Source of the DNA: Pseudovirgaria hyperparasitica
Taxonomy: Eukaryota; Ascomycota; Dothideomycetes; Acrospermales; Acrospermaceae
NCBI RefSeq assembly: GCF_010093815.1
Contig: NW_022985573.1
Span: 186,928 to 250,927 of the forward strand
Direction of reading: 5' to 3'
Length of the DNA: 64,000 nucleotides
Shown: in pieces, positions 6,511-55,326 of the stretch
Layout: every line of letters begins with the position of its first letter
How positions within the stretch are numbered: the first letter of the stretch is position 1
Notes under the pieces: model-generated
What the model was told of the DNA's origin: nothing
Seen by the model: the letters and a program-made list of their open reading frames with translations, nothing else
Database searches by the model: none
Program-made: the position numbers and the translations under genes

Positions 6511-6932
6511 CCTGGCCTATATTATAACTATAAGTAGAATAACTAGGTAAGGTTAGTCTATATTACGGAATTCGTATATAATAATAGCTAATATATATTA
6601 ATCTATATAAGTCTATTTAAAGTAAACTTTAGTTAGAACTATAATATATAGTTCTTAGGGACTTAGTTTAAAGTAGAACGACCTAATATTAAAGTAATAG
6701 AAATTACTATAGAACTATTCTAAATATAAAGAAGTATTATAAAGTTACTATAAGATACTATAGATTATAGTAAATTATACTATAATAAGGGTAGAAAACC
6801 TATAATCTTTAATATTAGGGATAAAGTTTTACTAAATAGTAAGAATATTTATAGTATTAGACTAAAGAAGAAGCTTAACTATATAATAATAGATCTATAT
6901 AAGATTACTTATATAATTAATAACTAGGTATA

Positions 6933-7533
6933 TATTAGGCACGTAAGGAGCACGTGGCCTACTAGTTAATTCTATATGTATATAGTAGTCGTATATAAGT
7001 AGTATACTCCACCCTTGAAGTAGTAGCTTTAAGATTTAGTCCTTTTAGTATAGTTAGTTAGTGCATAGAGCCCGCCTCCTTATATAATCTTAAAGCTACT
7101 ACGGGGTTACGGGTTTAACTCTCGGTCTAGTTAACCGTTATTGAATTTCGCACGATTCCGTTTAGCTTACCACGTTATATATACTTTATATACGTAACGG
7201 ATAACATGGTAGTAACGTTACTACGGTAAGTTAGCGTGTCTAGTACTAGAGGCGGCATTACGAGTATTAGTTATGTGTATATATCGTTTATACTAGGCCC
7301 GTTATAGCTAGTTTAGTTTATCTTTTATAAGGTAGCATGCCCATAACGCGTAAGAATACGCGCCTTTAAGAAGGGAGATAATGTTAGGTACATAAGGAGC
7401 ACGTGGCCTGCTAGTTAATTCTATATATATATAGTAGTCGTATATGAGTAGTATACTCTACCCTTAAAGTAGTGGATTCAAGATTCGGTTCTTTTAGTAT
7501 AGTTGGTTGGTGCGTAGAGCCCGTCTCCTTATA
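6933..7533 (+). mobile_element. TRIM (miniature LTR element)
   Basis: Two direct repeats of 152 bp each (6933-7084 and 7382-7533) flank an internal stretch of only about 297 bp. The right repeat begins TGTTAGG. It is preceded by a purine tract (AAGAAGGGAGATAA) of the kind used to prime plus-strand synthesis. A 5-bp target duplication (GTATA) lies at 6928-6932 and 7534-7538. There is no coding capacity. Small size, LTRs, purine tract and 5-bp duplication define a terminal-repeat retrotransposon in miniature. The two LTRs differ mostly by C/T and G/A changes, so RIP rather than age may explain most of the divergence. Confidence 0.8.
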
Positions 7534-7980
7534 GTATACGAGTTATAACTCCCTCCTATATTAAAGATATATAATATATTCTATATTACGCTTCTAGAGC
7601 TATTTTATACCTTATTATTACTAGATTATTCTAAATAGACGCTATATAAAGTAGTTATATAAGAAGGTATAGATATCTATAAAGTTAAGTAGATACTTAG
7701 CTAGTAATATACTAAAGATAGTACGTAGCTATATAAAATTTATTAGAAAGGATATAATTCTAATAAAGATACTTAGGAACCTATAATAAATATTAGTAAA
7801 GTAGCGATATTAGTATATAAGTAGTAATTAGTAAAGAAAGCTATAGAATTATAGAGAATTATACTAAAGTATAGTAATTTAATATTTTTTAGTATAGTTT
7901 AGTACTAAGAATAGCTATCTAAAAGAAAGAAGGTAAAAGAGATATAGATCTTTAAAATATTCTAAGGAATTAAGGAACTT

Positions 7981-8083
7981 CCTTAGAAAGTTCGAACTTA
8001 GAACTCCCTTAGAAAGTTTAAACTAAGAACCCCCTTAGAAAGTTTAAACTTAGAACCTCCTTAGAAAGTTTAAACTTAGAACT
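7981..8083. repeat. 26-bp tandem repeat, about 4 copies
   Basis: Unit close to CCTTAGAAAGTTTAAACTTAGAAC, with 25-27 bp spacing. It lies just after the chromodomain-like part of the gypsy fossil, perhaps in its 3' untranslated region. Confidence 0.75.
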
Positions 8084-8285
8084 TTAAAATTTAACTAAAA
8101 AAGAGACTTAGAAAAATAATTTACTAAGAGAAATAGACATTAAAAATCGGTACTAATTAGTATAGATTAGTATAGATTACTAAAGAGATAAAAGAAGTTA
8201 TTATTAAAGAAAGATAAAATTAAGAAAGCTAAAAGAAAATATAAAGATCTATATAGATCTATATAAACTTATACTAATCTATCTA

Positions 8286-8513
8286 CACGTGCTGCCTAAG
8301 GGCAAAACAACGGTAATACAGGCTGTAGGCTAATAGGCGTACCCTATGGCTGTATACTCAAGACGAAACAGAGGTTCAACGAGATGTAGTTATAGACATA
8401 AGGAAGTTTTTCCCTATAGGCTTTCTTCTTATATAGTGGCTTAGACTAGAGGAGGCATAGGCCTATAGAGTACTACTCTACCTAGTTATACAATATTATT
8501 ATTATTATTATTA
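8286..8513 (+). mobile_element. Severely 5'-truncated LINE tail
   Basis: A 228-bp plus-strand insertion ending in (ATT)n. Its sequence is the reverse complement of the 3' end of the Tad1 LINE (compare 10540-10760). It is flanked by a 17-bp target duplication (TTATACTAATCTATCTA at 8269-8285 and 8514-8530). It is clearly less RIP-damaged than the DNA around it, so it is probably a late insertion, or too short to be recognised well by RIP. Confidence 0.85.
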
Positions 8514-8530
8514 TTATACTAATCTATCTA

Positions 8531-10064
8531 GAAGAAGTAAGATTACTTTAAAATTAAAACCGAAAACTAAAAATACTAGATAAAAGAAATATATTAGTAC
8601 TAATTAGTATAGATCTAAACTAATTAAGTTAGAGTAGAAGTAGAAGTACTAATTACCGCGATAGTTATATCTAATTCCTTCTACTACTTCTTATTTAGTA
8701 TAGTATAGAGCTTTATAATATAAGTCTCTAGTCTTTTATTCTAATACTATAAATTCTATATAGTATACTTTATAGTAGTAAACTTCTCTATAGAAATCTA
8801 TAGAGTAATAGAATCTAGAATAGAGAGGGATAGACTAGCACGGATATACTAAGAATTATATAAATTAGTAAAAAGATTTAATAATTAGTATAGAACTATA
8901 TATCTTTAGTATAGAAACTTCTAGATTAGAGCTATCTTCCCTAAATTTATAGCTCTTTAGTATATATAAGAAAGGAACCTTAGCCTTTTTACTAGAACCT
9001 TTTCTAGAAATTTTAATATTACTAGTATATAGAAAGAAGTCTAAAGTAGTAGAGATTTTAATACTATTATAGAGATTAATATATATTAGTAAGAATCTAT
9101 AATAATTTAAGAAAAATAATATTACCTAGTAATTATAGTAATAATAGCTATAGTAGATTCTAATAAATTCTTATAAATTTTATTAGAATTATACTCCTAG
9201 GCGTAACTCTTACCTTAGGTATATAGCTTATAGAAAGTCTTCTCTAAGGCGTTATAATTAGTAGTATTATACTTCTTATTAGTAGAGGTTACTAGAGACC
9301 TAGTAGTAATCTATACTAATATAAGTAAATCTACGTAAAGTTCTTCGAACTTACTTAAATACCTATAAGTAATAATACTTCTTAGTTATATAAGTACTAT
9401 ATATTATAGATTTAGTACCGCCGTAAGTAATATACGATAGAAAGCGATAACTATAATAATATATAGCTAGATTATTAGAGCCCGGCCTAGGTTAGAGTAG
9501 ATTAATAGCTTTTAATATATTAGTAATATATATAAGATAGGGATTATCTAAAAGCGTCTATTTCTATACTAATTACTTTAGAGTATTAAGATTTTAGGAA
9601 ACTATATTATAATTATTACTAATTTATATAGATTATTATTAATTATTATTATTAGTAGCTAAATATAGTATAAAAATTAGTAAATTATATAAATTATACT
9701 AAATTATAGTAAATCTATATAAATCTATATCTATAAGAATCGGGTAATATATCTAATAATCTAAAAAACTTTATAAAGAGTTAAGAAGTTTTTTAAAGAA
9801 AGGAATATTTCTAAGAAAAGATTTTAATATAGATAGTACCTAGGCTTATCTAATTATATTACGTAATACGCTAGGCCTAATTAGATAATCTTACCTATAT
9901 AAGAATTTAGGATAGATAAAATCTAGTTTATTAGGAAAACACTTATATAAATCTTAGATTAATAAATATTAGTAAATATTAGAGATAAAGTATAGAGAAT
10001 AACTAAGGTCTTATAAGATTTAGAATAGAGATATAGAGATAGATAATAATCTAGATTACTAAGG
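8531..10064. other. AT-rich RIP-damaged DNA, unassigned
   Basis: About 1.5 kb of strongly AT-rich sequence with no usable frame on either strand. It probably continues the gypsy fossil or a second degraded element. I could not assign any domain. Confidence 0.4.
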
Positions 10065-10069
10065 GTAGC

Positions 10070-10209
10070 TGTTAGGCACGTGCCTACCAGTTAATTATAC
10101 ATGTATGTAGTAGTCGTATATAAGTAGTGTACTCCACCCTTGAAGTAGTAGCTTTAAGATTCGGTCCTTTTGGTATAGTTGGTTGGTGCGTAGAGCCCGC
10201 CTTCTTATA
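10070..10209 (+). mobile_element. Solo LTR of the TRIM family
   Basis: A single 140-bp copy of the TRIM terminal repeat (compare 6933-7084), from TGTTAGG to CTTATA, with a perfect 5-bp target duplication GTAGC (10065-10069 and 10210-10214). It lacks about 12 bp near its start relative to the other LTRs. It is the likely product of LTR-LTR recombination. Confidence 0.85.
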
Positions 10210-10214
10210 GTAGC

Positions 10215-10525
10215 TTCCTAAAGGAAGGGGATAATTATTAGGACTTAGCCTTAGATATAATCTAATCTATATATACCTTAGCTAATAGAGTTAGAAGATA
10301 GCGTAAAGGATAGTAAATAGTTATATACTAGATAGATTAGTATTCCTTTATATATATACTCTTAGATTTCTACTAAAAGGGTTTAGTAGTAATTTATTCT
10401 ATAATAGAATATACTCTATTATTCTAACTAACTATACTACTATCTAATAATACTATTCTTATAAAGATCTTAATATATTAACAAGAGTAATATAATTATT
10501 ACCTTATTATTCTTTATATTCTAAT
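10215..10525. other. AT-rich RIP-damaged DNA
   Basis: No coding frame. Sequence is of the same character as 8531-10064 and lies between the solo LTR and LINE copy 3. Confidence 0.4.
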
Positions 10526-10780
10526 CTATTATATCTATAATAATAATAATAATAATAATATTATATAACTAGGTAGAGTAGTACTCTACAGGCCTATGCC
10601 TCCTCTAGTCTAAGCCACTATATAAGAAGAAACCCCATAGGGAAAAACTTCCTTATATCTATAACTACATCTCGTTAAACCTCTATTTCGTCTTAAGTAT
10701 ATAGCTATAGGGTACGCCTATTAGCCTATAGCCTATATTACCGTTATTTTACCCTTAGGTAGCACGTATAGGTGCGGAGG

Positions 10781-10811
10781 TTATTAGTTAAGGGCTACCC
10801 TCAACTAATAA
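10781..10811. repeat. 31-bp palindrome near LINE 3' end (copy 3)
   Basis: Same inverted repeat as at 2306-2336, with one arm mismatch, 241 bp inside the 3' end. Confidence 0.8.
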
Positions 10812-13800
10812 TTAGGGTTCTCCTAGGGTTCTTCTAGTATATATCGGGTTACTACCGGCGTATGCCGGGTCTCTTCCGGCATATATTTCCGGGTCCACTA
10901 GTACTAGAGGAGTAGTAGATATATAAGTATCTATCGGGAGACGTCCTTAGAGTACTTATTAAGCTATTATATAATATCTAAAGTCTTTATAACGTAGATA
11001 AGCTATTACCGTTATATATAGAGGTTAGGGTATATAGCTAGATAGTAGCGTATTATACCTCTCCGGCCGTACGCCTTATACTATAGGGAGGTATTAGGAA
11101 CGCCTCTCTTATAGATATAGTATAGGAGTTCTATAGCGCCCGTTCGGGCTTAGATAAGTATAGATACTTAGGCTTTCGTTAGCCCTTTATATATCTATTT
11201 ACTCGGTTCCTTCTATAGCCCTCGAATCTACTCTAGGTACCTATTCTACTAGGAGGTCTAGTAGGCACGGAGTGCCTCTTTCTACTTATCTTAAGTCCAT
11301 GACCGTATATTTTTTACGAGTTCTTAAAGGCTCTACTAGTCTAGGAGAGCGTCCGGGTTATCTCGGACTTCTTATACTACTTAGCTAGAGTCGGCTTCTA
11401 TTAAGCACCTATACCGTATTTAATTCTAGCCTATATATAGGAGTACACGGTAATATATACTAATTCATGCGCGTAGCGCGGCGAAAGTATATTCTACGTT
11501 TTCTATACGTTCCTATACTTATTATTTAGTAAAGTATACTACCCTCTATATCTAGTAGAAGTTATATATACTTATGACGTCTATCTCGCGTCGTAGTAGT
11601 ACCGTGTTAGTAGCTTTATATACGCCTAATATAAGACGGAGTATACGGTTCTATATAGATTCGAGCTTTATTCGCCTAGTCTATATAAGGGCCGTGTACT
11701 AGCACTCGTGTCCGTACGTGAAGGCGGGTTATACTATAGATATATATAGCTAGCGTGTCTTATCCTAGGCGGTTCCCTACGTGGAGACTATAATCTATTA
11801 TATAGCGGCTTCTACCCGGAGGGCCCTAGAGACGGTATATACCACTTATAGTCCCCATTTAAGCTTATTATCTAGTATAACTCCGAGCGCGCGTATACTT
11901 TATACTAGTAGTTCATTAAATACGTCGATTCGGGGGCGTCGTTCGCCTTCCCTAGTTACCTATTTCCCTTAACGATTAATAAAGTATATAAGCTAGTATT
12001 TCTCCGGGGCGAACTTTGCTCTATGGCGTTTTACCTACTAGAGGCACCTCTTATAGTCCTATTCTAGTCGTCTACACGTTCGGTTAGTATTATTATTAAT
12101 AGCTAGGAGGTATATATTATCGGCGTATCCGACTATCTCTATATACTTTATTCCTTAAAGAAGGTCTACTATAAAGAAGAGAAATAGAATTGGAGAGATA
12201 GTGCTCCCTTATAGAATACCGTATACTATCTCTTTATATTCGCTCTAGTACCTAGAGATATATATCTAAGTTATTCTTTCTATGAGGAATAACTATATAA
12301 AGTATATAATCTATTCTAGTATTCGTCTTATCCGGAGGTTATAAATAAGTCTTATATAGTTTACCTTATTAAACGCTCCGGCTATATCGAGGGAGAGAAG
12401 TAATACTACCTATCCCTATTTCTATACGGCCTAGACGACTTTAATAATATATTAGATAGCTATTATTAGGGAGCTATCTATCTTTACCTTCTGGTTCGGA
12501 GGGAGGAGATTATATTTCTATACCGTAGTACTTATCTTCTTCGCTACCGTAGCCTCTAGTATCTTATCTAGGTAGAAGAGAAGGGCGATTAGTCTCTATC
12601 CCTTTAGGGAGTTAGGGCTCTTTCCTAGTTTCGGGAGTATAATAGTATAGACGACTTAGAAGCTCTAGAGGTGGTACCTCTACGTAACGTATGCTTAGAA
12701 TATACGAGTAATAAGCGGTAGGGTCGCTTTTATAGTACTTTTTAGGCATCGATTTAGAATTCCATCTAGTCTAGGTACTTTATTATTTAGGAGTATCTTA
12801 ATAATATTAAGTATATCCTTCTCCGTAACTTCTTCGGGGATATCTACTATATATAGATATTCGGCGCCGTGAATATCTAATAGGTCTACTAGTTCTAGAA
12901 GAGAGAATATAGCCTTCTATAGAGCCTTAGTTTTCTTAAGGCTCGTGGAGTATATTCTCCCCTAATATATTAGGGGAGGTATAAGTAGCGGGGGTGTCGG
13001 AGTATCTACGCCCTTAGCCTATTTCGCCATATACTATAGCCCTATTATATATTATATCTATTAACTAGTAATTATACGCTACTATTTACGCCTTTCGTTA
13101 CGGAGGACTTTATCACGTTATTATATTACTTCCTTCTATTCTTTCTACGACTCGGGTGTTCTCGTATAGTATACGTATATGTATAGCCTTCAGGCGTCTT
13201 ATCTACTCTCCTATACTTAAGGAATCTCCTTTACTTCTAGGGGCCGGTATATTTAGTATAGTACATGTTTATTTCTCGCATTCTAGTATATTTATAGAAG
13301 TGTCTATACGGCCTGGTCTATAGCTAGATCGTTAGATATATCGACTATAGAGGGATCTAGAATCGCCGATTCTAGGTCCTTTAGATACTTTTTCTAGTTA
13401 GTGTCCTTCTATATCTATTATCCCCGTTATTTATTCGGGGTATATACGTTTATTACGGTTTCCATATATTCGTAGTCGGAATCCGTCTATACCTAGCCTA
13501 GGCGGTAGTATTAGATCTAGTAACTAATATACTCCGTGGCGAAGGTAAGGTCAAGCGTAGACCCGTCTTCGTTCTATTTATATTTTTTCTATATAACTTA
13601 TTCTATAGGTATAAGTAGGTATAGGAAGTCATAGTAGCGGGTGCGTAGTTCCCTTACTCTAAGTTCTTCCCTAACTACGGCTAGGCCTCCCTACTATTAG
13701 TAGTAGAGGTTAAAGTCTCCTAGGAGAATATATTACCCTAGTTCCGTAGTACCCTCGAGTATCTCGTCTAGTATAAGTACACGTTATTAGTTATATATAT

Positions 13801-15557
13801 TATATATATATAGGGGGCCTATATCTATTTATAGGTGTAGTATTATCCTAAGGTTATCGCGCTTAGTATATAACTATAATAAGAGTAGTATTAACCTATA
13901 AATATAGAAGAGGACTCGTCTTTCTAGTCCTAGAGGGTATATAGTATAGTATCTAGGGTGTGTGGTTAGTTTACTTATCTAGTAGTATTTATAGGGTTTC
14001 TAGATAGCGAGTATTATAGCCCCAGACTCTTCGAGGAGCGTCGCCTAGTTCTCTCTTTTATATTATATATTTATCTATATAATTTAGAGTATATTCTAGT
14101 CCCTTATTAGGTACTAGGGAGTATATATATCTATATACTTATTCCTTAGAGGCGCGACTATCCTCGCGCGGTAGCGGCTTTAACTATACCTTTTAGTCGT
14201 CCTATTATCTTTAGAATAGTCTACTATCCCGCCTAACTACCTTCTAGAGGGGAGGTTAGGGGTATTATAAAGGAAGGGCCCGTGGTAGGTATTATATTCT
14301 ATAACTATCTCGCGCCTCTTACTTTTATCATGCGAATATATTCTATAATCTATTTACGTTTTATATACGTTAACGACTATAATAGATATTTCCCGTCGTA
14401 GTTTAAACACTATACTATATCCCTATTTCTTAGTCCGTCTCCTCGCGGTTTATAAGGGTACTCCTAGATAGCGTGGTCCCTACGGTACTATCCGCACTTA
14501 GTCTTCTATAAGTACCTTTATATAGTATGTCTATACCCTTAATAGTTAAAGTACTATATTATTATCTATGCCCTATCCTATAGCTCGGCTATAAGGAGCT
14601 CTCCTTCTACTAGGAATCTCTCCTATATAATATATTATATAAGGGCGGGGTCTCGGAGCTCTATAATTATAGTAGAGTGTTTTTTCGCCGTCGACTTAAT
14701 CGTCTATAGGTTCTTCTACCACGCTTTCACGATCTTAATCCCTAGGTATTTTTATGTATTAGATTATTCTATACACGTAATATCCTCCGCTCCGATAGCC
14801 TATCCCCGTATAGATACTATATATACTATAATTAGGTATATAGCTACTCTAATAGACGCGCTAGGAAAGATACTACCTATTATATTCGGATCTCGTAAGA
14901 TGTTTTACTACGTAGTATTTATTATAGTAGTAAGTACTACCCCACCTAGCGTAACTTTAATAGCTACGATACTTAACTATATTCCTTTCTATTTATTAAT
15001 CTTATTTATAATTTCCTTTAGGGATACCTATTAGACCTACGCTAGCGTATCCTTATCCTAGATTATAATATATATACTATATACTCTATCTATGGTTCTA
15101 GTAGTCCTTAGTGCGGTAGCTCCGGGTATTACTATAATCTAAGCCTACGTATTAGGGCGCTTACCTTAGAATAGCTCTTCCTAGATTCTCCGTAGGCTAG
15201 CTTCTATTCGGTTAAGCCTACTACTAGGTTCCTCTCGTGGCGACTTCCTTTCTTCCTCCGTAATTTCTCTTAGATTCTAGATAAGGTCCCGGAATATATA
15301 AAGGAGGGTCTTCTTTCCCTTCTCGGCGTCCCTCTCTATATATATTACCTAGTATTTAATTTTATCTAGGAGGGTCTCCCCTCTTAGGGTCCCCTTAGTC
15401 TAAGTTATCTATAGCGCTTCGCACCCTTAGTTAGTTCCTATATTTTAGATAGGTGTCTAGCTATCTATATTAATATCGCTATATAGCCGTTTCTACTATA
15501 CTAGTGGGGGTATATCCGGCGTATACTAGGGTATTATAATATCTAAGGCCGCTATAG

Positions 15558-15588
15558 TTATTAGTTAAGGGTAGCCCTTAACTAATAA
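15558..15588. repeat. 31-bp palindrome near LINE 5' end (copy 3)
   Basis: Same inverted repeat as at 1775-1805, 234 bp inside the 5' end. Confidence 0.8.
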
Positions 15589-15836
15589 ACGGGAGTCGGC
15601 GTGTTAGCGGTTATTAGATATAGTCTATACTTATATTATTAAAGAGTCTTCGAGCGTATATATATAGTATCTCTATACGTCGGTATCGTCGCGTATTATA
15701 TACTATATATATATATGTGTATCGGAGGTTGTTATACTTAGTATACTCTATCGTTTAATATATGTAAATCGCTATTTTACCCCGAATTGACTAGTTTAGT
15801 CCGTTAGGGTGTAAGAAGTTTTCTATTATATCTATA

Positions 15837-16860
15837 TATAAATCTATAACTCTAGTACTAAAGAGTCTAATAACTCTACTAGAGACTATTATCTATAATT
15901 ATATATATTTAAATGTAATTATCTAAGCTAATCTCTACTTAGGGAAATTTTCTTCTCTTAAAGATAGCTTAGATAGAGAGAATAGGTTAAGTTTAAAGTT
16001 AATAGATATGTTTATTATTAATAAGTTTCTTAGGTTCCTTCTCTTTCTTTATATAGGACTTATTCCGACTTTTTCTATTTATTATATATTTATAAGGAAG
16101 GTAGTAAAGGTAAAAGAGGTAGAAGAATAGTATAGAGAACGATATAGAGGATAATATAGAGGCCGAGAGTTAATAAGGTAATAGAATTAAAGTAAAACTT
16201 TAATAAGGTTAGTATAGAAACTATAGTTTAGAAAAGAGACCTGTTTTTTATTAAAATATAATAGTTTTCATTAATAAAGAGGTGTTTTAAGGCTTTTATA
16301 GTAAAGTACTAGACTTATAATCTATTATAAGTAGAAAGTAGATATAATTAAGGTTATTAAATATATTCTATAATTATATATAGAGAACTAAGTTCTAGGA
16401 GATAGAGTCGAAGCTATTTAACCGTTTAGACACTAGTCCCGTTTAGGAAGTAGTGTCTCTTACTTAAAGTGCCTTCCGATAATAAGTTTCTTTAATCGAC
16501 TACGCGATTTCGTCTAGCTTTGTTAAAATAGAACTTAAAATTAGACTACTCTTTGAATACGTGCTTTTTCCTCCGTACGTTAATTTCTAACCTCTTAATA
16601 ATCTTTAAATCTTCATCCATTCCATTTTAGAGGTTATCCTAGAAAGCTTCCTTATATTTATGATTTTTAAGCCAAATAGTAGTATCTACTTTGAGTGTAA
16701 AGTTGTCGAAAAAGTGTTCTAGATCTTATAGACTTTACATTAGTAGCTAGAGTAGATGGTTGTTTATAAGCATGCCTTATAGTTGTTCCACGAGTGTTAC
16801 ATCTACTTGTCGCTCGGCTTAACCATCTATATACATTCCTCGCTATTGATGTAGGGCACT
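15837..16860. other. RIP-damaged AT-rich tail of the TE nest
   Basis: AT-rich DNA without any recognisable frame. Base composition climbs toward host level between about 16,400 and 16,860, marking the right edge of the repeat nest. Confidence 0.5.
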
Positions 16861-32071: not shown

Positions 32072-32318
32072 GAGAATGCATGTACTCCCCTGTGATTAAA
32101 TTCTCAAATCAAACGAAGTTTATAACGAAAAAGAAATACTTCTTGATGTCCTTAGGCTACTGTGCTGCGTGCAGAGTATACCCGGCCGTACCAGCCGACA
32201 TTACGGTCGTATCAAGCCCAAATATTGCCCATTTCCGCTCTTCCTCGCACTTTTGCTTCACTCAGATTTAGCCTATATTACACTGTTCAGAACCCTCAAC
32301 GAGCGCCATATCAATCCT

Positions 32319-35300
32319 ATGGATAGGTTTAGTCAACACAGGCGGGGAAGAGGATTCGGGAGCGGATTCGGGAGCGGATTTGGGCGGGGCAATCCAGGGC
32401 AAGGCAACAGGGAAAGAAACGAGGCCAGCCTCAGGCCATGTCATTATTTTTCAAAGAATGGCTATTGTAAGTTTGGCTTATCATGCAAGTTCTTCCATGG
32501 TCCGTCAATCGTAGATAGAGATAGGAGACAGAATCATGGAGGACGACCGCCCGGATCTAAGGAGACACCCGAGCAACAACAGGCCAGAGTGGACTACAAT
32601 GCGTGGCGCCGATTCATCAAGGTATCACCTACTAGAACTGACGAGAGAACAATGGAACAGCTTTGGAGTGATGGTCTTGCCATCTTGAATGGCGACAATC
32701 TAGAATGGCAGCAAATGTTGCCACGCGATCTGGACAGCGACGACTATCAAGGCAGGGAACATATTAAGGATGTACTAGAGCTGCGATCAAGCCCAGGAGA
32801 AGAGCACAACTTCGTTCGCATTGCGCGTTCGTTTCTCTCCGTCATCACTCATCGGGCTCTCCTAGACTGCCTCTCGGTTGATACCGCTGTTGGAGCGCTT
32901 TATAATTTCGTGAGTGGCGCGAATGGGAACCGTGCGATTGCATTCTTCCAGCATCTTTCCCAAACGCTAGAAGAGTCTTATTTAAAATCCGCCGACTCTA
33001 TCGCAACGATCCAGACTATTCTACAGACCATGCTGGTAGCACTTCGAGAGCTCCTTGGGAGAGAGCCTCGCGCTAGATTGAACGAAAACATTACATCTTT
33101 ACTAGATCAAATGGAAGAGACTACCAAGTTAATCGCTAGAGATACACGCGATTTGATCATGCCAATCACCCTAGGTCAGATCAATGAAATCCGCGCTATT
33201 GTTGCACGAGCAAACGGACTTCTTGCACAAGATGATACTAGACAGATGAAAACTATCACCAAGTCAGCATATCCCCGCAACCTGGTAATGCCACAAGATC
33301 GCCATGATAACGACAAGCCTGATATTGCTAATGTCAAGATCTTTCCGACTTCTGAGGAAATTATGAGCGATGCGATTGACTTTTTACCCTCCACCGATCT
33401 CGACCAACCTCACTTCCTTCAAGACAAAGTTGAAAGACATATCGATACATGCTTTCGTCTTCTTCGTCATGACACATTTGGAGAATTGAAATCGGCTTTA
33501 GGGTCATTCTTGCATACCGTACAAGGCGATCCGGCTTGTATTAACCATCCAAAGCTTAGTCTCGGGGATATTCGAGCTTTCCACTACTTGCATGCGTTCA
33601 TTAGCTATATCTCATTTGATCGTCGGCATGGTCTCGAAATGAATATAACATTCAGACAAATCCCGCAGCTACGCCAGAAATCAGCGAAAGAGAGACAAAA
33701 ATGGTGGCAAGACTCAAAAAGACTTGGCGAGGGTGTTCTTCTCTCATTAATCGCAGTTCAAGACGATCAAGTTCAGCACTTATTCTTCACGGTTAGTAGA
33801 AGAGATACGGACACGGGACACGATGGGAGCCTTACAAAGGAAAATGCTCAATGCACCATTACTTTAAAGCTGGTGGCCACCGATCAGACACAAGTAGCTT
33901 TGGCCGTTTCCTTGAGCTGCCAAAAGACACAGGGGATCCTTCTAGAGTTTCCTGGTACCATTCCCGCTACGTTTGTACCGATTCTCGAGAACCTAAAGAG
34001 AATGCAAAAGTTTAGCAGGCTACCTTTCAAAGACTGCATTCTCCCTGACCAAATTGACGACACCCGGAATCGAAAAGGCGGCAGCACTCTTGACATACTA
34101 GCCCCACTTTACGCTCGTCATCCTGGATTTGCTTTCAACTTGAAGTCCATTCTCAAGATAGATGCGGTGGGAAACGATGACATCTACGTGCTACCAACAT
34201 CTTCTCCTAATGACGCAGCTATCATTGACACAGTTGAAGCTCGCACCGCACTAGATCGCGGCCAGAGTCAAGCCTTGATATCAGCGTTGACGCGAGAATT
34301 TGCATTCATCCAAGGCCCGCCTGGTACTGGAAAGTCGTATCTTGGTATTGAGTTGATGAAGGTTTTGATGGACTGTAAATCAAGAGTAGAGTTGGGGCCT
34401 ATCATTGTGGTGTAAGTTGGGGTCTCAAATCTCAAGTGCTTGGCTAACGATAGACAAGGTGCTACACAAATCATGCGCTCGATCAGTTTCTTGAGCATTT
34501 AATTGACATCGGAGTCAAAAAGACCATTCGTATCGGAGGTCAGAGCCATTCCACTGTTCTGGAAGAGCACAACCTTCGAAAGATTTCCCAAAGCGAAGGC
34601 AAAACAAGATCGGAAGGTTTCCTCCTTCACAAGTCATACGAGCGTTTAGAGCAAGAGTGTGAGAGAATTAAGAAGAGCCTAGGGCGCCTTCATGGCACTT
34701 TTAGACATGCCAACTGGTCGAATTTGCAATATCACCTCATGTACAGGTACTCAACGATTCATGACCAATTTAGTCGATTTGACGAAGACGGTTTTGAGCG
34801 GGTTGGTAAGCCTCTTTTTGATGCCTGGATTCCTCCTACTAGCAATGATCGCCCAGTCACGGAAAATGGCAAGACGGAACCGGCGGCCACCTTGATCAAC
34901 CACATTTTAGACAAGGCAGCAGCCAATGTCCATTCCTTGGCACAGGAGGAGAGGCAAATGCTGATGCGCTTTTGGTGTCAAGAGATCCATGATACTGCTC
35001 TCGATGATCTTTATGAAAGGTTGAAAATGACAGAGTCCGCGCAAAAGCAACTTGCCGACATCCATGACGAAGTTGATCGGCGAGTGCTTCAAGCTGCGGA
35101 CGTCATTGGAATTACGACAATAGGACTAGCGAAAAGGATTTCCACGCTGCAGCGTGTGCGATGCAAGATTGTGATCTGTGAGGAAGCTGGAGAAGTCATG
35201 GAACCGCACATGATATCTGCGTTGCTTCCGACGGTAAGTCGCTCCCAGAAACAGCACTGTGGCAGTGTAAGCGTACTAACGACAACATTTATAGGTTGAG

Positions 35301-38300
35301 CATCTGATCCAGATCGGAGACCATGAACAACTTCGTCCGCAGATAAACAACTATGGTCTTTCGCTCGAAAGCAAGCAGGGTGAGTTGTACCAATTAGATC
35401 GAAGCCAGTTTGAAAGGCTGTCCGTTGGGCAACCTGGGCGACCTCGGATCCCTGTAGCTCAGCTAAACGTACAGCGACGTATGCGTCCTGAGATATCGAA
35501 GTTGATACGGGAAACCATCTATCCTAGTTTGATCAATCACGACACAACCATCGACCTTCCAGACGTCGTTGGAATGCAGAAGAATGTATACTGGCTGGAT
35601 CATGACCATTTGGAAGAGGGAAAAAACTCCGACATGCACCAAAAGTCTCATTCTAATATTTGGGAGGTGGAAATGGTGCACGGATTGATCCGCCACATTG
35701 TTCGACAGGGTGTCTACAGAAGCAGCGATATCGCTGTCTTGACACCTTACACTGGACAGTTACAGAAGCTTCGCTCAGTGATGAGAAACGACTTTGAGAT
35801 CGTGCTTAGCGACCGAGATCAAGAGGCACTTGATAAGGACGGATTTACCGAAGGCGACGCAAGTCTTCAACAAGGAGCTGCCGGGCAGCAGTCGTCCTCC
35901 TCCAACGCCGTTTTGGAAAAGAAGAAGCTCAGTGATCTCTTACGGATTGCAACTGTGGACAACTTCCAAGGTGAGGAGGCCAAGGTGATCATTGTCTCTC
36001 TTGTCCGGAGCAATAAAGAAAAGAAAGTCGGATTCCTCAGGACGACAAATCGAATCAATGTTCTTCTCAGTCGAGCCCAGCACGGACTGTACCTGATTGG
36101 TAACTCTGATACATATTCAAACGTTGAAATGTGGCAGAAAGTTATCAACATGCTTCGATTAGCTGACGCAGTCGGAACAACTTTGGGGCTTAGCTGCCCG
36201 CGCCATATTGAAACCGAGATCATAGTCCACGAGCCTCATGACTTTCCCAAAGTCAGTCCAGAAGGAGGATGTCGTCTTGCATGTCTCTGGCGCTTGCCTG
36301 GATGTGGCCATATGTGCCAGTCTAGATGTCATTCGGAAAGTATGCACAGTGCATTCTTGTGCGCACAGCCTTGTCAAAGGCTACTTGAACCATGCGGACA
36401 TGCTTGCCAGAAGCCGACGTGCGGAGAGAATTGCGGAAGATGTCACATCAAGCTGAATAATGTGCCGCTTCCTTGCGGGCATTTCAAAGATAATGTACTC
36501 TGCTTCCAAGCACAGAATCCTGGTCTACTCTGCTGCTCCATTCTGGTTGAGAAGCTTGTCCCATCCTGCGGACATACCGTAAAAGTGACCTGCTCAATCG
36601 ACGTGGCGTCGGAAAGATATCGTTGCTCAAACCCATGCGCCTCAACATTACCCTGCGGCCACAACTGTCCGGGATCGTGTGGTAGCTGTAATGCCAAGGG
36701 CGTTGAAGGCAAAGTGTCGACGTCACACCAGAAATGCACCAAATTGTGTAGCCGTCGATTTGGCACCTGTAATCATTCCTGTCAAAAGGCTTGTCATGGA
36801 AAAGACTGCGGTCCTTGTCTCTCTCCCTGCGAAGTCCGCTGCCAGCATTCGAAATGCACCCTGCGCTGCCACGAACCATGTGCGCCATGCATTGAAAGAT
36901 GCACATGGGAGTGCCAACATCGTGGACGGTGCACCATGTAAGTTTTATGTCTCTGCGAGCTTGTTATCTTCGATCAACTGAGCTGATGCTGACCTTTTTC
37001 TTTCTTCTCAGGCCGTGCTCTGCACCTTGTAACAGACTGCCCTGTGATCAGCGTTGCTCGAAGAGTCTTCCTTGTGGCCATCAGTGTCCAGGTATATGTG
37101 GTGAAGCATGCCCAACCGACTACTGTCACGCCTGTGGCTCCAAGCCAGATGCCAGAGTTGATCTTCTGGAAATGAAAAGCTACAGCGAAATCAAGATCGA
37201 CGAGACTCCAATCGTGGTTCTCGGATGTGGGCATTTTTTCACAGCAGAGTCGCTGGATGGTCTTGTGGGTATGAGCGAAGTTTATACTACCGATGTGTTT
37301 GGAGACTTCACTGGCCTAGCAGATATCAGCGGCTCTTTAGCGATGAAAGTACCCAAGTGCCCAGACTGCCAACAGCCAATCATGCAATACATAACTCAGC
37401 GATACAACCGAGTCATCAACAGAGCGGTGATTGATGAAATGTCAAAAAGATTCTTGGTTAATGGTAAGACTGAGCTCCAAGAGCTGGAAACGAACGTTGA
37501 GGATCTTGAGTCAGGCCTCGTGGAGTCGAGGGAAAACATTAAGGACTCTGTAGAAAACTTGACGTCAAAGATTCGAACCCGATATCATGAATCCAAGAAG
37601 CTACAAAGTAAGCTTGAAGATTTCCTCCGGAACGTTGCAGATCGACATCAGCCGGCTCATAAACTCCACGAGGCCGTTGTCCAGGCTAGTAGGAGCAACA
37701 GTACAGACGATCCTGCATCTATTGCTGATGCATTTGGTTCACTGAGTATCCACCGAAACAGCATTGGCCCCGTCGAGCGAGACCGCAGAGTCACCTTTGG
37801 GGGTCGCGTTCTGCAGATGAAGGCGGAGTCCATCATACTAGAAGACAAGTTCCAGATCATAAAGAAGCTTCGATCCGGTCCATCCAACGAAGACGCGAAA
37901 CTCTCCGGCGGAAATCCACAAGATCTTACGAAATCTTTCATGAAAGCTTGCGCATTACTAATAAAGGACTGCGAGATCGAGAAGCTTCCTAAACTCGCAG
38001 TAGAAGCTTCAATCCACTTCGCCACAAACGCACAACTCTACCGCTCATCTCAATTGTCCGGTGAAGATAGAAAGAAGGCTACCGAGTACGTAGAAGAGGC
38101 GAAGGATTTGCTGAAGCAAGCGCATGAACTATGCGAGCAACCCTTTCATAATGCAAATCAACTGAAAACTTGCGTCGAGGAAAACATCCAGATTCTTGGA
38201 AGGGAGTGGTACGAAGAAGTGACTGCCAAAGAAGTTGCCGAAATCAAGAAGGCCATGGTAAGTGGTAGAGGAGGCATCGCAACACACTCGGGTCACTGGT

Positions 38301-38501
38301 ACAATTGCGCAAACGGACATCCTGTAAGCATCACAGTTAGCAAATACACAGTGTAGAGGCTAACACCCCAGTTAGTTTGCTATCGGTGAATGCGGAATGC
38401 CGATGCAACTTGCGCGCTGTCCGGAATGCGGCGCGGCTGTTGGAGGATCAAGTCATCAGGCTGTCGAAGGTGTTACCAGAGCCGCACAAATGGAAGAATA
38501 A
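32319..38501 (+). CDS. NFX1-type zinc-finger SF1 helicase (ZNFX1 / Hrr1 / SAD-3-like), about 1,982 aa
   Basis: Five exons: 32319-34411, 34459-35233, 35295-36937, 37012-38323 and 38376-38501. All junctions are in frame, with GTAAGT/GTAAGC donors; CTAAC branch sites are visible in most introns. Order of parts: Gly/Arg/Phe-rich N-terminus; CCCH finger (C41, C50, C56, H60); a long helical region; SF1 helicase with Walker A GPPGTGKS (666-673), a CEEAGE Walker-B-like motif (938-943), GDHEQLRP (964-971), NFQGEEAK and NRINVLLSR (1208-1216); NFX1-type Cys/His repeats (about 1270-1560); coiled coil; and an RZ-type finger at the C-terminus (C1936, H1940, C1947, C1956, C1959). The relatives ZNFX1, fission-yeast Hrr1 and Neurospora SAD-3 act in RNA silencing with RNA-dependent RNA polymerase, so a similar role is inferred. 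Key ATPase residues are intact. An in-frame upstream extension to 32169 exists, but its start is not ATG. Confidence 0.93.
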
Positions 38502-40130: not shown

Positions 40131-40603
40131 TCAATCCACTCTGCACACCTCCAGCTCCTCATCACCGTGTTGCTCCGCATTGCCCATATACTTTGCCAAT
40201 TCCAAGACATGGCTGGACATCACCTTCCTCTGCAGATCCTTGACGCAAATAAGGTACGAAGGATATGCGTAGTAGATCCAGCCATGACCGTCGGGGCAGG
40301 AGAAGGAAGACGGAGTCCATTTCAGGTTGGCCATTGACTTCAAGCCTTTGGGAATGGACAGGAGTTTGGTTTTGGTGCCGGCGGTGTTGGCCGGTGCTGC
40401 AGGTGACAAGACGCGTCGCTTTGATGCTGAGGTCCCCTCGCTTGACACGTCGCTTGACCGTATCTTGCGCCCCGGTATACGCTGCCTGTCCTGCTCTTGC
40501 TGTCGTGGCTCCTGGTCTTCATCGCCCAGCTGGCCAGTTAGCTTATCTAGGTGCTTCGTCCACTGTGGCCTGTTCGCTTTCACCTGTGGAGGATCTGTCT
40601 CGT

Positions 40604-40835
40604 GCGTGTCCTGCGTGTCCTGCGTGTCCTGCGTGTCCTGCGTGTCCTGCGTGTNNNNNNNNNNNNNNNNNNNNNNNNNNNNNNNNNNNNNNNNNNNNNN
40701 NNNNNNNNNNNNNNTGCGTGTCCTGCGTGTCCTGCGTGTCCTGCGTGTCCTGCGTGTCCTGCGTGTGCTGAGTGTGCTGCGTGTCCTGCGTGTCCTGCGT
40801 GTGCTGAGTGTGCTGTGTGTCTTGCGTGTCCTGCG
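40604..40835. repeat. 9-bp tandem repeat (GCGTGTCCT)n around an assembly gap
   Basis: Consecutive 9-bp units TGCGTGTCC with CTGAGTGTG-like variants at the right end. Being a multiple of three, it stays open in every frame on both strands, which creates the spurious repetitive ORFs here. The true length is unknown because the gap lies inside it. Confidence 0.9.
40655..40714. other. Assembly gap (60 N)
   Basis: Sixty undetermined bases inside the 9-bp tandem repeat. The assembler probably failed on the repeat, so the number of N is unlikely to reflect the real length. Confidence 0.98.
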
Positions 40836-45476: not shown

Positions 45477-46601
45477 TCAGACGCGGACCATGTTGCCTGT
45501 TTGTAAAGTCTCGTCTCTCTGTGTTTCAGCTTCTTTGCGTTGCTCATCGTCCAGCTTCCTCATCCAATGGCAGTACACACTGTCATGACCCTCGTGCATC
45601 TCTTTGATCCAGAAGTTGGCGTGGAAGAACGATGGCCTTGGTGGAACGGGGTCGTCCTTTTCGTAGCCTTCCAACTGCCGAGCCTTACAGCCCTGGATTG
45701 TACCTTGACTTCCGTACTCACCGCAGAGCCAGGCATACGCTTTTTCGATAGGCTTTTCGATGTAACCTAGCTCGGCGTATTCGCGTTGATGCATCCAGTA
45801 GGTAATAGGGTGAGGGCGAGTTTCGGAGTCATCGAAGAGTTCGGTTTCGGCAAAATCAGTAATGACAGGAATAAGCTCAGAGGACGAAGTTTCTCGGAGG
45901 ATAATGTTGCGTGGTGGAATGTTCCTAATGCAGATGCCATTCTTCCAAAGGTTCGAGACGCCGTCGATAATTTTTATCATAACCTTTCGTTTAGTTTCGG
46001 GGGACGCTTGAAGCTTGTCGAGATGGCACCCTTTGATGTATTCCATGACAACAACTTTGTGGAATTCCTCTCTTGGGTAGGGATAGGGATGAGCATCATC
46101 ATCAAAGTTAGCGTAGAATATTGGAGTTACACTCTCCTCATTGCAACGTTGTAGGGCGGTGACCTCTTGACTGTTTGCAGCTTTCAAGGCTTCTACGACA
46201 TCAGAACGTGTAATCGAACCGGACTCATTATCAGTAAAGGGTGTTGCATAGTACTTCGTACTGAAAATCTTGACGACAAGAACCTGTCCTGGGCGGAAGC
46301 CTAACACTCCATCTGGGTTGGCAGCATCTTTCATCACAACAACTTTCCAGACTTGTGCGCAATTTTTGCCGTGCGCGAGCTTCTTCTTGCGCTTGAGTTT
46401 CAGCTTTGCGTCTGTGTTCGGGAGTGTGAGGGTGAGGTCGGCCGCTGATTCTGGCTCTTGTTGAGACGCCTCTCGTTCCTTTGGAGGAGTTATTGGTAGA
46501 GTGGTAGAGAGCTCTGGTGTTGATGAGAGACTCATCTCGCTCGGGGGCTTCATTTCTTCGTCTGAGTCCAGCATGCTGAGAGGAATGCGACGTGGAGTCA
46601 T
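45477..46601 (-). CDS. Protein-kinase-fold protein with degenerate catalytic loop (374 aa)
   Basis: A minus-strand frame. I start at the ATG at 46601 (MTPRRIPLSML); the frame is open to 46829, but that extension looks non-coding. Residues 1-95 are a Ser/Pro/Glu-rich tail ending in a Lys/Arg cluster. The kinase-like part follows: QVWKVVVM, a VLVVKIFS strand with the candidate ATP-binding Lys, a helix with EVTALQRCNEES, the hinge KVVVMEYIKGCHL, and then GICIRNIPPRNIIL where active kinases have HxDxxxxNxxL. The catalytic Asp is therefore not in its usual place. VITDFAET stands where DFG is expected. It is probably a pseudokinase or a divergent fungal kinase-like family member, cytosolic. The frame has no internal stops. 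Downstream, QLEGYEKDDP and a Trp/His-rich C-terminus look ordinary. Confidence 0.75.
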   Translation of the reverse strand: MTPRRIPLSMLDSDEEMKPPSEMSLSSTPELSTTLPITPPKEREASQQEPESAADLTLTLPNTDAKLKLKRKKKLAHGKNCAQVWKVVVMKDAANPDGVLGFRPGQVLVVKIFSTKYYATPFTDNESGSITRSDVVEALKAANSQEVTALQRCNEESVTPIFYANFDDDAHPYPYPREEFHKVVVMEYIKGCHLDKLQASPETKRKVMIKIIDGVSNLWKNGICIRNIPPRNIILRETSSSELIPVITDFAETELFDDSETRPHPITYWMHQREYAELGYIEKPIEKAYAWLCGEYGSQGTIQGCKARQLEGYEKDDPVPPRPSFFHANFWIKEMHEGHDSVYCHWMRKLDDEQRKEAETQRDETLQTGNMVRV

Positions 46602-46948
46602 TGATGGCTCGTAAGGGAATGATGGAGGAAGAAGGAAAAGGCACCCAGGAGCGGCACGTGCGAAAGATCGTTTGTGGCTTTGTTTCCCACGCAAGTCACC
46701 TGTGGATGGTCCCCTCCAGGTGATGTGGTTTGTTCTCCGCCTAAGACGTGTTACGGAGAGTAAATATTCGTGATTGCATGGCATGTCTGCACATACAAGA
46801 TTGAGACGCCGAGCTCGGGCTTCGGACACAGTACTTGAAGTCGGGGCGGGACGCTCGAAGCATGTCGTCGGAGTGCATAGGTATGCGTCCGAAAGATCCT
46901 TTGTGTGGACAACGAAGGAGAATGAATAGGTTTCTCGTAAGGCAGTAA
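46602..46948. other. Upstream region of the kinase-like gene
   Basis: Open minus-strand frame to 46829 but with Arg-rich, non-conserved-looking content; probably 5' untranslated region and promoter. Confidence 0.35.
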
Positions 46949-47153
46949 TGTATACCTCAGGCAGGATACATACCTCAGGCAGGATACATATCTCAGGCAG
47001 AATATATACCTCAGGCCGGAGTGTATACCTCAGGCCGCAGTGTATACCTCAGGCTGTAGTGTATACCTTAGGCCGGAGTGTATACCTCAGGCCGGATGTA
47101 TACCTCAGGCCGCAGTGTATACCTCAGGCTGTTGTGTATACCTTAGGCGACAA
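46949..47153. repeat. About 18-bp minisatellite, about 11 copies
   Basis: Units around GTATACCTCAGGCCGSA with lengths of 17-19 bp. The first three units differ (ATACATACCTCAGGCAGG) from the later ones, so two subtypes are present. The plus-strand ORFs here come from the repeat. Confidence 0.9.
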
Positions 47154-51550: not shown

Positions 51551-51612
51551 TATGTAATCTGTGTGAGTTGCAACTTTTCGAGGCCGCCATAGTACAGATC
51601 TCTGTGAGTTTA

Positions 51613-53446
51613 GTAATACCGCGAGAAGACTACTGGCAGCGCTACTGTCACCAAAGTCATCAAGACGTCGCCGCACGCCAGGAAGTTCGAAAACGTGCCC
51701 TTGTCGTACAAGACGCTCCCAGCCTTTCTCGAGATCCCCTTAATCTACGTCATTATCGACCGCTCGACGTCGTACTTTAGCACCCTCACGCCCCTCCTAG
51801 TGCTCACCCTCTGCGCGTTAATGTTGGGGTTGATTGCGATGTACGACTACTTATCGAGCTCTATCTTATATAGCTCCTCGAACCTCCCTACCCCTACCGT
51901 CACGATTAACTTCCTCTCGTCTACTAGCCTGGGCCTCGGCCCGCTCTTACACTACCTTCCTTATCTTAATCGACATCTGCGTGACATCGTATAAGATCGT
52001 CGACAAGTTGGTGTTCCCTAAAGCGCTTATGAATGCCCTTATAACTATCTTAGGCATGTGGGGTTTCTTCTTACCCATCCTCTTTATAAGGTCCTTAAGT
52101 AATACGGAGTCGTTCTCGAAGGGGACCACGGTTATCTCGTAAATGATGTTATCCACCATGCTCTTAGGGGCTTTATAGCACGTGACCTTGTCCTTTAAGT
52201 TAGTCGCGACGAGAGGGCGGTTCTTACATAATAAGTTAACCGTGGGCTGCTTTAACCTAAGCGTCTTATAGGGCTTCACGCAGACTATGCCGTCGAATTA
52301 TAACCTGTAGCTGAACGTTTTGAGGACCTCCGTGATCGAGCTCTAGAATTTTATCGTCCTTATCTCCGGAACGCAAGTCTCGAGCCCATGCTCCCCGAGG
52401 TACTACCTAGCCTTATTCTTAACGCGCCCGTTCCCAGCGAGCATGTGGATGTACATGGGCATCCTATTAAGTATCATCTCTACGACCAAGACGTCGGGGG
52501 TATTCGTAATCTGCATGAATAGTAAGTAGGTGCTCTTCATCCTGCACGTGACTATGATAAGGTTAGTATCGGAGGGTGATTATATAGCCGCCGTGGTAGT
52601 AGAACACATACATCTTTATGCCGTCCACCTTATGTATAAAGTACCCCTCGTGCCCATCGAGATTGGAGACGTCCACTATATTGTGGTCTAAGTTCCTCGC
52701 CTCGTTTATAGAGTCACGGTTGATCTACTTAGTTATCTTCGTGTGGCTCCCTAGGAAGGAGACGCTGTAACTCGTGATCACCCTTAAGTTGTTCGTTAAG
52801 TAGTCCTTCTCGAACTCTATCTCGCACGCGTAGCTGGTCCCTAGGTGGCCCTTATACTCCGTCGCGTTCGAGTGCGCAGTCGCCGAGCGCATGTTAATCT
52901 TAAGGGACTTCTAAGTCATACTCGTATAGGTCTACACCTTATAGATCGTCCCCTCGAAGTCGAACTCTAATAAGTTAGCTAGATGAAGCTAGGCATAAAC
53001 TTAATCTTAGTCACGGGCACCTTCACGGTCTTCTCCCTAGCATTCCTGACCCTTACCTACACGTTCGTGTTATATGGCTCGCCCTACTAGAGTGTGTAGG
53101 ACTGCTCCTTGTAGTTCGTGACTACCACAGCCCTACCGAGCTTCTTCTTCTCCACGTTCTTCCACACCGCTTTAGCCATCCCGCTGCTAAACCTCATCTC
53201 GATCTTTTCGTAAGGGTCGTCCGACATGGAGGTGATGTTGCACGCCCTCGTCGGCTCCACAGGCCCGTCAATCAAGCGCGCCTTGAACGAGTTCTTGTTG
53301 TATAGCCCGGTGTCGTTCATCTTCGTTATCACCCTCCTTAATGAGTCCGACGGGCCTCTGCACTTACATATTATCATCTCGGCCGGTTCATCCGCCCTAA
53401 TCATCCTCATGTGCCTGATCTCGGCCTTCTCGGGGTCCTTGCTCAA
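51613..53446 (-). pseudogene. Fossil viral-type mRNA capping enzyme (triphosphatase, guanylyltransferase, methyltransferase)
   Basis: Minus-strand frames show the three parts of a large-virus capping enzyme in order. The triphosphatase part carries glutamate-rich strands (EKIEMRF near 53190; CEIEFEKD near 52820), as in metal-tunnel triphosphatases. The guanylyltransferase part carries KVDGIK near 52615-52632, the KxDG nucleophile motif, then FDGIV near 52300 and a TLRLKQPTVNLL stretch near 52240 that fits motif V (LKxKxxxTxDL). A methyltransferase-like glycine motif follows near 51870 (VGVGRFEEL). Poxvirus D1, African swine fever virus NP868R and killer-plasmid ORF3 share this architecture. 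The gene is a fossil, broken in roughly ten or more places; an intact 110-codon piece (52279-51947) and a 119-codon piece (53446-53087) remain. Identification rests on motifs, without database comparison. Confidence 0.7.
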
Positions 53447-53599
53447 TATGCCGAGCTAGTAGATGTTGGGTCGGTTGGTGGCCTCCATCGTGTACTAGTC
53501 TTATTATCGTACCGTTCTTCTAGATGTAGTGGTAGTAGTTAATAGGCTACTTCTAGTCGACCACGGTCGTGTATGTAGACCAGTGTCGTATTGCTAGCG
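53447..53599. promoter_or_regulatory. Divergent intergenic segment of the fossil
   Basis: About 150 bp between the two fossil genes. It must once have held both promoters. No specific motif was recognised. Confidence 0.35.
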
Positions 53600-55326
53600 T
53601 GTGTCTACGAGCTACCCCTGACGCTAACTATTAACCTCGAGAACTACCAGAGCAGCTTAAAGACAGTCTTCCGCTACTAGAACTACGACCACTACAAGAT
53701 GTGCCATATTAGCTATATTGAGTGCCTCGCGTGCAAGTAGAACATCTCGTCGAAGGTCATCTTGTGTAAGCACGCGCAGCCCGGGAAGGTATACATTACG
53801 AACGACGAGCTGCGGTCGACCGACGTAGTCAAGTAGGTAGGTAAGAGCGCGAAGTGGTCGCTAGACCTACACGACTACATGGACGTCATCACGGTCTATA
53901 ACTACCAGCCGGCCTGCCCGAAGACCGAGTAGGACTATACGTGGGACGAGGACGTCGAACTAACGTAGTTCTTCTCGAAGTTCTAGGTCTGGCGCAACGA
54001 AGGGGTCTACAACACGACATACATGATCGAAAAATATAGCGCCATCTAGTACATGAGGAGGTTCGCATGCCTCGGTTGCTTTATAACGCCTAGAAGACCT
54101 TCTACCACTCCCCTACTAGACCATGGAGAATGGGACGCCCTTTACGGCGAGGGAGGTCCTGGTCTGAGGCGGGGTGGCCAAGTTCGTTAGGTCGGTACAC
54201 AAGTACGTGTGGACCAACATCAACGTGGAGAACCTGAATGTGTACAAGGCGGACATTAACGACGCGAAGTCCCCAGTCCCGTGCAAGTAACACGACTACT
54301 GTCCCGGGCACTTGTGCTACGACGCGGACTTGGACAGCTACATGATACCATACGGGTTTGCCAGAGGCAATGAGGACACATATTCGGACAGTAGCTTGAA
54401 GAACCAGGCCGTCATGAGGTATGAGATCACGAACAGAGAGTTGGCGAACCACTACTACTCGAAGCTTGCGACTAAGCGCGGGATCTTAAGGAAGCAGAAC
54501 AACGGCACCAGGCCCGTGAACAGCTTCAGGCTCGTCGCGTCGCCCCCCCTAGCGGTGTCGTTCAGGAATGGGGTGCCGTGGAAGTTGCTCGACCGCGGCT
54601 ACGTGGAGGTCTCAAGGAGGGTCTTGTCGAAGGCGAACTTCATGCACCTCTCGCCCGACGGGTACTGCTCCGTGAGGAAGATCGAGGTGGGGGAGACGAT
54701 CATCGTGGGGAGATGCCCATCGCAGGGTAAGAACAGCACAGTGCCGCTTAAGGTGAAGTTGGCGCCGGAAGGAAGGGGTGGACTCGATCGCGATCCCGTG
54801 GGAGCTCTGTAGACTAACGAACGCGGACTTCGACGGGGACGAGGTGTGGGGGTTGGTGCCTATGACCGTGGCGGGATCCGAGGAGGTGGAGAAGAGGTGG
54901 TTCGAGATGTGGGAGTCGAACGAGGAGCAGACCGTCTTCAACAACGCATACGAGATGGGGGTCAGGAGCAACGTCAGCAGCGAGGTGGACCCGGCCATGT
55001 TGACGACCATGACGGTCAGGGAGATGTCCGCGCACAAGGGCGGGAAGAAGTACGACAGCATGATGCTCAAGCCTACGTCGTGGTCGCAAATGTATAAGGT
55101 CATGATGTCCAAGACCTACTGGCAGTCGTCCGTGACCAGGGGCGAGAACGGCATCTTCAACGTGTATATGGGTAGGAGCTCGTTGGCGGACCCCTACGGG
55201 TACATGAGAACGGGCATTATAATGGGGTGCTGCCTCAACGTCAACGACGACAGGGTAGGGATCAACTCTTACCAGATTCTCAAGGTCCCGAAGGCATTGA
55301 ACGAAAAACAGTCATGTAGCGTGCCA
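53600..55326 (+). pseudogene. Fossil DNA-dependent RNA polymerase largest subunit (RPB1 / beta-prime-like)
   Basis: Plus-strand frames contain the hallmark catalytic motif NADFDGDE at 54820-54843, whose three Asp bind the active-site magnesium in all multisubunit RNA polymerases. About 100 bases upstream, GRCPSQGKNS corresponds to the usual GRQPSLHKxS block, and further upstream are Cys/His pairs (CLACK, CKHAQPGK near 53740-53780) that may be an N-terminal zinc site. The distance from the presumed start to the catalytic motif (about 400 codons) suits RPB1. After the motif the residues VWGLVP replace the common MNLHVP, and the text continues to 55326 without reaching the usual full length (over 1,300 residues), so the 3' half is absent. 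The fossil is broken in several places. It is too divergent to be the host's own Pol I, II or III subunit, which is inferred from the motif surroundings. Confidence 0.8.

Follow-up and report, generated by a model that had tools for sequence, protein, structure and literature searches.

Yeast linear plasmids of the pGKL2 type carry their own RNA polymerase, with a strongly reduced β' part, and a capping gene; in poxviruses as in pGKL2, the polymerase and the capping enzyme associate in vivo (PMC6211774). Cytoplasmic linear plasmids are said to infect Saccharomycetales only (PMC10328495), and no double-stranded DNA (dsDNA) virus infecting fungi was known, as stated in 2023 (PMC10640383). Here we analyze a foreign stretch of ~3.7 kb in a contig of the ascomycete Pseudovirgaria hyperparasitica, which is likely to be the fossil of an ascomycete dsDNA element, i.e., a virus or a linear plasmid, with a multisubunit RNA polymerase of its own and, most likely, a capping enzyme. 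The stretch holds the broken gene of a distinct RPB1-like family, without a second copy in that genome. The family is marked by a reduced length, by fungal records among its carriers, and by 12 members that lie on 24-33-kb contigs.

The locus resembles pGKL2-type plasmids in its pairing of a strongly reduced β' with a capping gene (presumed here, from motifs) and in having ascomycete carriers. It differs in that open reading frame (ORF) 6 of pGKL2 is a β-β' fusion, accompanied by the small ORF7 (PMC6211774), whereas the β' of the family is separate and ~600 amino acids (aa) long. In addition, the named carriers of the family are outside Saccharomycetales, and its contigs are about twice the size of pGKL2. 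The size of pGKL2 is ~13 kb, and nuclear fossils of linear plasmids are known for yeasts. Compared to poxviruses and asfarviruses, in which RPB1 is full length (vaccinia chains have 1250-1285 residues), the family proteins are about half as long, with one recognized RPB1 domain in all five members scanned. A likeness to the multisubunit RNA polymerases of jumbo phages is seen with phrog_2987, a 478-position phage RNA polymerase profile which we take to be the jumbo-phage β' half, and which matches three of three family members tested at 30-43 bits; in contrast, the member P0002 had no match at E 0.01 in 50,697 phage records, and the named family members, four in number, all come from fungi. 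Viral polymerase and capping genes are also found in a fungal chromosome in the 1.5-Mb Asfarviridae-related insertion of Rhizophagus irregularis, but that insertion is huge, recent and in an arbuscular mycorrhizal fungus (PMC10640383), whereas the present locus is a small decayed fragment with another polymerase family.

The polymerase gene and its protein family

The window is the whole 64-kb stretch of DNA that was analyzed (C25:186,928-250,927, in a 35.03-Mb genome of 59 contigs), and positions are counted within it. The ~3.7-kb foreign stretch occurs only once in the whole genome, on a host contig of 308,417 bp, and contains a polymerase gene on the plus strand that is divergent from a presumed capping gene on the minus strand. 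The features of the polymerase gene are:

54123..55316, plus strand: disrupted RNA polymerase gene without its 3' part, encoding a reduced subunit of the RPB1 type (match to P0003; ends estimated by eye)
54291..54809, plus strand: first open piece of the polymerase gene (173 codons), matching P0032 at 58% identity (111 residues) and P0003 at 55% (161 residues)
54757..55326, plus strand: second open piece of the polymerase gene (190 codons), out of frame with the first and matching P0002 and P0003 at 52-53% identity
54820..54843, plus strand: NADFDGDE catalytic motif, read directly within the 190-codon open piece

The gene covers about the first two-thirds of a ~600-aa protein. Residues 14-229 of P0003 align to 54,135-54,782 (48% identity, 224 bits; one TGA and one TAA internal) and residues 224-400, of 598, to 54,769-55,299 (52% identity, 208 bits); the last third was not found in the genome with P0003 or P0008 as queries at E up to 10. 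In the family alignment the columns D252-E257, i.e., the NADFDGDE region, are at least 90% conserved, and the window polymerase keeps 72 of the 88 columns with such conservation, gaps making up 8 of the 16 misses. It carries the RPB1/β' double-psi β-barrel active site with NADFDGD. A first-pass annotation of this DNA had named a largest RNA polymerase subunit from NADFDGDE, and this is borne out by the motif at 54,820-54,843 on the plus strand and by the 48-52% match to P0003. With the open piece alone, Pfam returned RPB1 domain 2 at 13.9 bits, under the cut-off, and a PDB sequence search with the polymerase piece alone gave nothing relevant.

The family was built by searching the open piece against 5.8 billion proteins, which yielded five relatives of 598-608 aa that are 43-53% identical to it (E 1e-59 to 5e-41); their profile then gave 33 matches, comprising 31 family members (P0002-P0032) and 2 ordinary RNA polymerases (E 2-3e-3). 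With 23 of the 31 members at 598-646 aa, four above this range (679-810) and four below it (342-473), a length of ~600 aa is normal for the family. RPB1 domain 2 was the sole RPB1 domain recognized in each of the five relatives scanned, so that these ~600-aa chains do not hold the full RPB1 domain set; further domains may sit in a separate protein, and residues 344-607 were barely probed by structure. In the predicted model of one family member, structural comparison by VIA-align showed the RPB1 active-site fold.

Named members are found in Hortaea werneckii (KC359_g8917, contig of 26,847 bp), Xylaria venustula (F5Y03DRAFT_44989, P0026, 101 kb), Podospora conica (QBC39DRAFT_333875, 206 kb) and X. 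telfairii (F4803DRAFT_575154, 5.6 kb), all four fungal; we take Hortaea, Podospora and Xylaria to be Dothideomycetes and Sordariomycetes. The longest contigs of the 31 members, environmental ones among them, are shorter than 24 kb in 16 cases and 24.4-32.5 kb in 12; the range of 33-100 kb is empty, and three contigs are longer than 100 kb, a distribution which suggests a free element of ~25-32 kb plus chromosomal insertions. In a quick, midpoint-rooted tree of the family, P0028 groups with the window, while P0026 and P0027 fall in a 12-row group without Hortaea (Shimodaira-Hasegawa-like approximate likelihood ratio test, SH-aLRT, 100). Because the three members with contigs above 100 kb lie on both sides of the deepest division, insertion into chromosomes probably happened more than once. 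P0027 is an open 613-aa frame on a contig of 2,130,122 bp, either a recent insertion or a retained gene; in the gene model of P0026, inspected by eye, an unrelated C-terminal part seems to be joined on to the polymerase, as though the model spanned an insertion junction.

In a tree with known polymerases, for which 12 of the 31 members were used, the family forms one clade apart from host, phage and IMG/VR polymerases, and no supported neighbor was found among them (path ~7.8, with long branches, too distant). One scan of IMG/VR returned at least 50 polymerases, all distant (20-34% identity), and four scans with several queries gave no close family member among the matches listed. P0002 had no match at E 0.01 in 72,556 plasmid records, and when prokaryote genomes were scanned once with P0008, none of the 21 pattern matches was confirmed (exact patterns only); given these scans and that of the phage records, a phage or bacterial origin was rejected. 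A literature search by title or abstract opening, with preprints and most subscription papers outside its coverage, found no description of the family.

The presumed capping gene and the decay of the stretch

Upstream of the polymerase gene, the remaining part of the stretch contains:

52975..53497, minus strand: presumed RNA triphosphatase part of the capping enzyme, named by position only (174-codon frame with six TAG and no other stops; no relevant database match)
52809..52823, minus strand: EIEFE, candidate tunnel-triphosphatase glutamate strand (motif chain)
52614..52631, minus strand: KVDGIK, candidate guanylyltransferase motif I with the nucleophilic lysine (motif chain)
51947..52570, minus strand: presumed C-terminal half of the guanylyltransferase, including the OB fold (DGIV at 52,283-52,294, then KQPTVN; motif chain; no relevant database match)
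51577..51954, minus strand: possible cap methyltransferase part, weak (read by eye; no family match)
53591..54112, plus strand: possible further gene with several cysteines (174-codon frame with seven TAG and no other stops)
51600..54122, no strand: dinucleotide bias resembling repeat-induced point mutation (RIP), with TA/AT 1.37-2.17 and (CA+TG)/(AC+GT) 0.52-0.70

From ~53.5 down to 51.6 kb on the minus strand, candidates for ExExE, KxDG and motifs IV and V of viral D1-type capping enzymes (built as triphosphatase, guanylyltransferase and methyltransferase) follow one another as EIEFE, KVDGIK and DGIV...KQPTVN. KVDGIK is the sole match to K-x-D-G-[ILVFMPTY]-[KR] on either strand of the window. 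The whole chain occurs once in the window (both strands), in none of 3000 simulated 2.2-kb sequences and in none of 60 simulated windows; these first-order Markov simulations used textbook patterns that were loosened after the sequence had been seen, so that the numbers flatter the result. On this chain of motifs, the divergent gene is likely to encode a capping enzyme. Of the three-part enzyme proposed in the first-pass annotation, the ordered motifs stand, whereas no library confirmed the enzyme and the methyltransferase part is weak. The two genes are divergent as had been described, but they do not necessarily adjoin: the candidate ORF 53,591-54,112 on the plus strand would separate them. 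Its sole Pfam match is a zinc ribbon at 9.3 bits, far under the cut-off, and no relative of it was found.

The window copy is unable to make a full polymerase or a full capping protein. In-frame stops in the presumed frames beyond the polymerase number 21 TAG and 3 TAA, with no TGA, whereas the polymerase frame has one TAA, one TGA, no TAG and one frameshift. RIP-type change would produce TAG out of CAG and TGG codons, and the polymerase pieces contain seven CAG, one CAA and seven TGG. The TAG-only pattern is also present in two non-coding frames of the reverse strand (from 54,111 and 54,769) and is thus no proof. As the stops outside the polymerase are mostly TAG, an alternative code in which TAG is a sense codon was considered; it was rejected because the frames of the relatives are open in the protein collection and because of the stops in the polymerase frame.

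Dinucleotide bias of the kind seen at 51600..54122 is what RIP leaves behind. Compared to the flanks (145 overlapping 1-kb windows), where the medians are 0.76 for TA/AT and 1.19 for (CA+TG)/(AC+GT), the stretch is shifted, with the flank extremes of 1.45 and 0.59 overlapping it. The bias is absent from the 250 bases from 53,251 (0.72, 1.11), and the polymerase part is scarcely biased (TA/AT 0.67-1.09; (CA+TG)/(AC+GT) 0.86-0.89). It can be argued from the bias that the element DNA was long resident in the fungus. RIP normally requires a duplicate, and a second copy of the stretch may therefore once have existed. Elsewhere in the window, 1-16500 is AT-rich and heavily RIP-like (TA/AT 1.66; (CA+TG)/(AC+GT) 0.21) and includes 162-codon frames at 763-1251 and 14546-15034 that closely resemble each other and probably represent a mutated repeat.

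Origin of the stretch

If the stretch were a pseudogene derived from the RNA polymerase and capping genes of the host, it would belong to the same broad protein families; NADFDGDE is common to both, and the family profile gives the host largest-subunit genes 31-38 bits. The same profile gives the window pieces 256 and 203 bits, and in searches of the genome with P0003 and P0008 the window scored 152-224 bits per piece as against 12.9-15.7 bits for the three host largest-subunit genes. These genes lie outside the stretch, and their PF00623 matches are free of stops; three host RPB2-type genes also lie elsewhere (PF00562; one with a TAG inside the match). The host capping genes are also elsewhere and on different contigs: one guanylyltransferase on C1 (PF01331, 181 bits) and one N7-methyltransferase on C4 (PF03291, three clustered matches, with two weak matches elsewhere). 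The best matches of the polymerase are thus not host genes; a host pseudogene is refuted for the polymerase and, for the stretch as a whole, was rejected as extremely unlikely. Contamination or misassembly, by which element DNA was wrongly joined to a fungal contig, would fit with the junctions, at which no target duplication was noticed when the repeat list was inspected by eye. Yet the stretch is ~66 kb from the nearer end of its 308-kb contig and its junctions are N-free (all 60 N of the window lie near 40.65-40.71 kb), relatives are found in three contigs above 100 kb, and the stretch is truncated and frameshifted and contains many stops, together with a RIP-like bias not expected of free element DNA. 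We consider such an artifact highly improbable. The earlier claim of a chromosomal fragment of a foreign virus- or plasmid-type module is in this respect supported, by a polymerase family foreign to the host genes and, for the capping half, by motifs.

The source could instead be a larger nucleocytoplasmic or mirus-like virus, the family being one transcription gene of it. RNA polymerase and capping genes are known from such viruses, as in the Rhizophagus insertion (PMC10640383), and a soil survey reported co-occurrence of nucleocytoplasmic large DNA viruses (NCLDV) with Ascomycota, which made up 16 of the 18 NCLDV-fungus pairs of one network (PMC11265010). Against this stand the length of 598-646 aa in 23 of the 31 members, the single recognized RPB1 domain in the five scanned, the lack of a close member among the IMG/VR matches listed, and the contig sizes: 12 of the 28 contigs shorter than 100 kb are longer than 24 kb, yet all stay within 32.5 kb. 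We consider this source quite unlikely. Spread of the yeast killer-plasmid (pGKL2-type) lineage to filamentous fungi would account for the fact that a reduced RNA polymerase and a capping gene occur together in both, and the killer-plasmid β' likewise lacks most of the clamp (PMC6211774). But pGKL2 has β and β' fused in one ORF (PMC6211774), a fusion not seen in the family, where 23 of 31 members have 598-646 aa and no β domain was found in the five scanned, and the reported range of cytoplasmic linear plasmids is Saccharomycetales only (PMC10328495); this lineage is an unlikely source. Of the kinship with poxviruses, asfarviruses and killer plasmids that had been proposed, the virus- or plasmid-type character is retained, but the nearest kin are an unnamed family of mostly ~600-aa RPB1-like proteins.

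Several observations weigh against the fossil of a small self-transcribing element. Genes for replication or for a capsid are not linked to the module, and neither a fourth RPB2-type gene nor a second copy of the stretch, as RIP would need, was found in the genome. In the genome no protein-primed family B DNA polymerase was found with PF03175, a profile that matched in a single control, under the cut-off, and only an element fragment is present; nor was an NCLDV double jelly-roll major capsid protein found with PF16903, a profile that matched in 0 of 14 controls. The capping pieces gave nothing relevant in Pfam, in PDB (unrelated weak matches only) or in one large protein search, in which the presumed guanylyltransferase C-terminal region drew 199 candidates from 5.8 billion proteins and none at E up to 10, a null that could be due to decay or to the region chosen. 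PF10640 found nothing either, with a profile that rang in no control. The family profile gives host and IMG/VR polymerases ~30-45 bits, i.e., they are homologous but distant. Finally, the size and gene content of the element are read indirectly, and its cytoplasmic life would rest on analogy.

The fossil of a dsDNA element nevertheless remains our preferred account of the stretch. The living element, of ~25-32 kb, would carry out both transcription and mRNA capping for itself outside the host nucleus, by analogy with poxviruses and pGKL2 or yeast linear plasmids; its DNA would have been integrated into a chromosome by accident, and the insert would then have been mutated, probably by RIP, and have lost its ends. 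On balance, we lean towards an unrecognized and still circulating lineage of dsDNA viruses or linear plasmids of ~25-32 kb in filamentous ascomycetes, which would transcribe and cap for itself by means of a uniquely reduced polymerase and leave repeated chromosomal fossils. The presence of the family in Hortaea, Podospora and Xylaria and on element-sized contigs makes it possible to ask directly whether such elements occur in filamentous fungi, and the family bears on the origin of killer plasmids and their polymerases.

Other features of the window

On the same contig as the fossil, 32100-38356 contains pieces of a ZNFX1-like RNA helicase gene, with Pfam matches above cut-off to zf-CCCH and AAA_12 and weak matches to AAA_11, ZNFX1 and an RZ-type finger. 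A protein-kinase-like ORF lies at 45480-47048 (23.6 bits, under the Pfam cut-off). A minisatellite with a 9-bp unit occupies 40603-40835, and the N run inside it accounts for all the N of the window.
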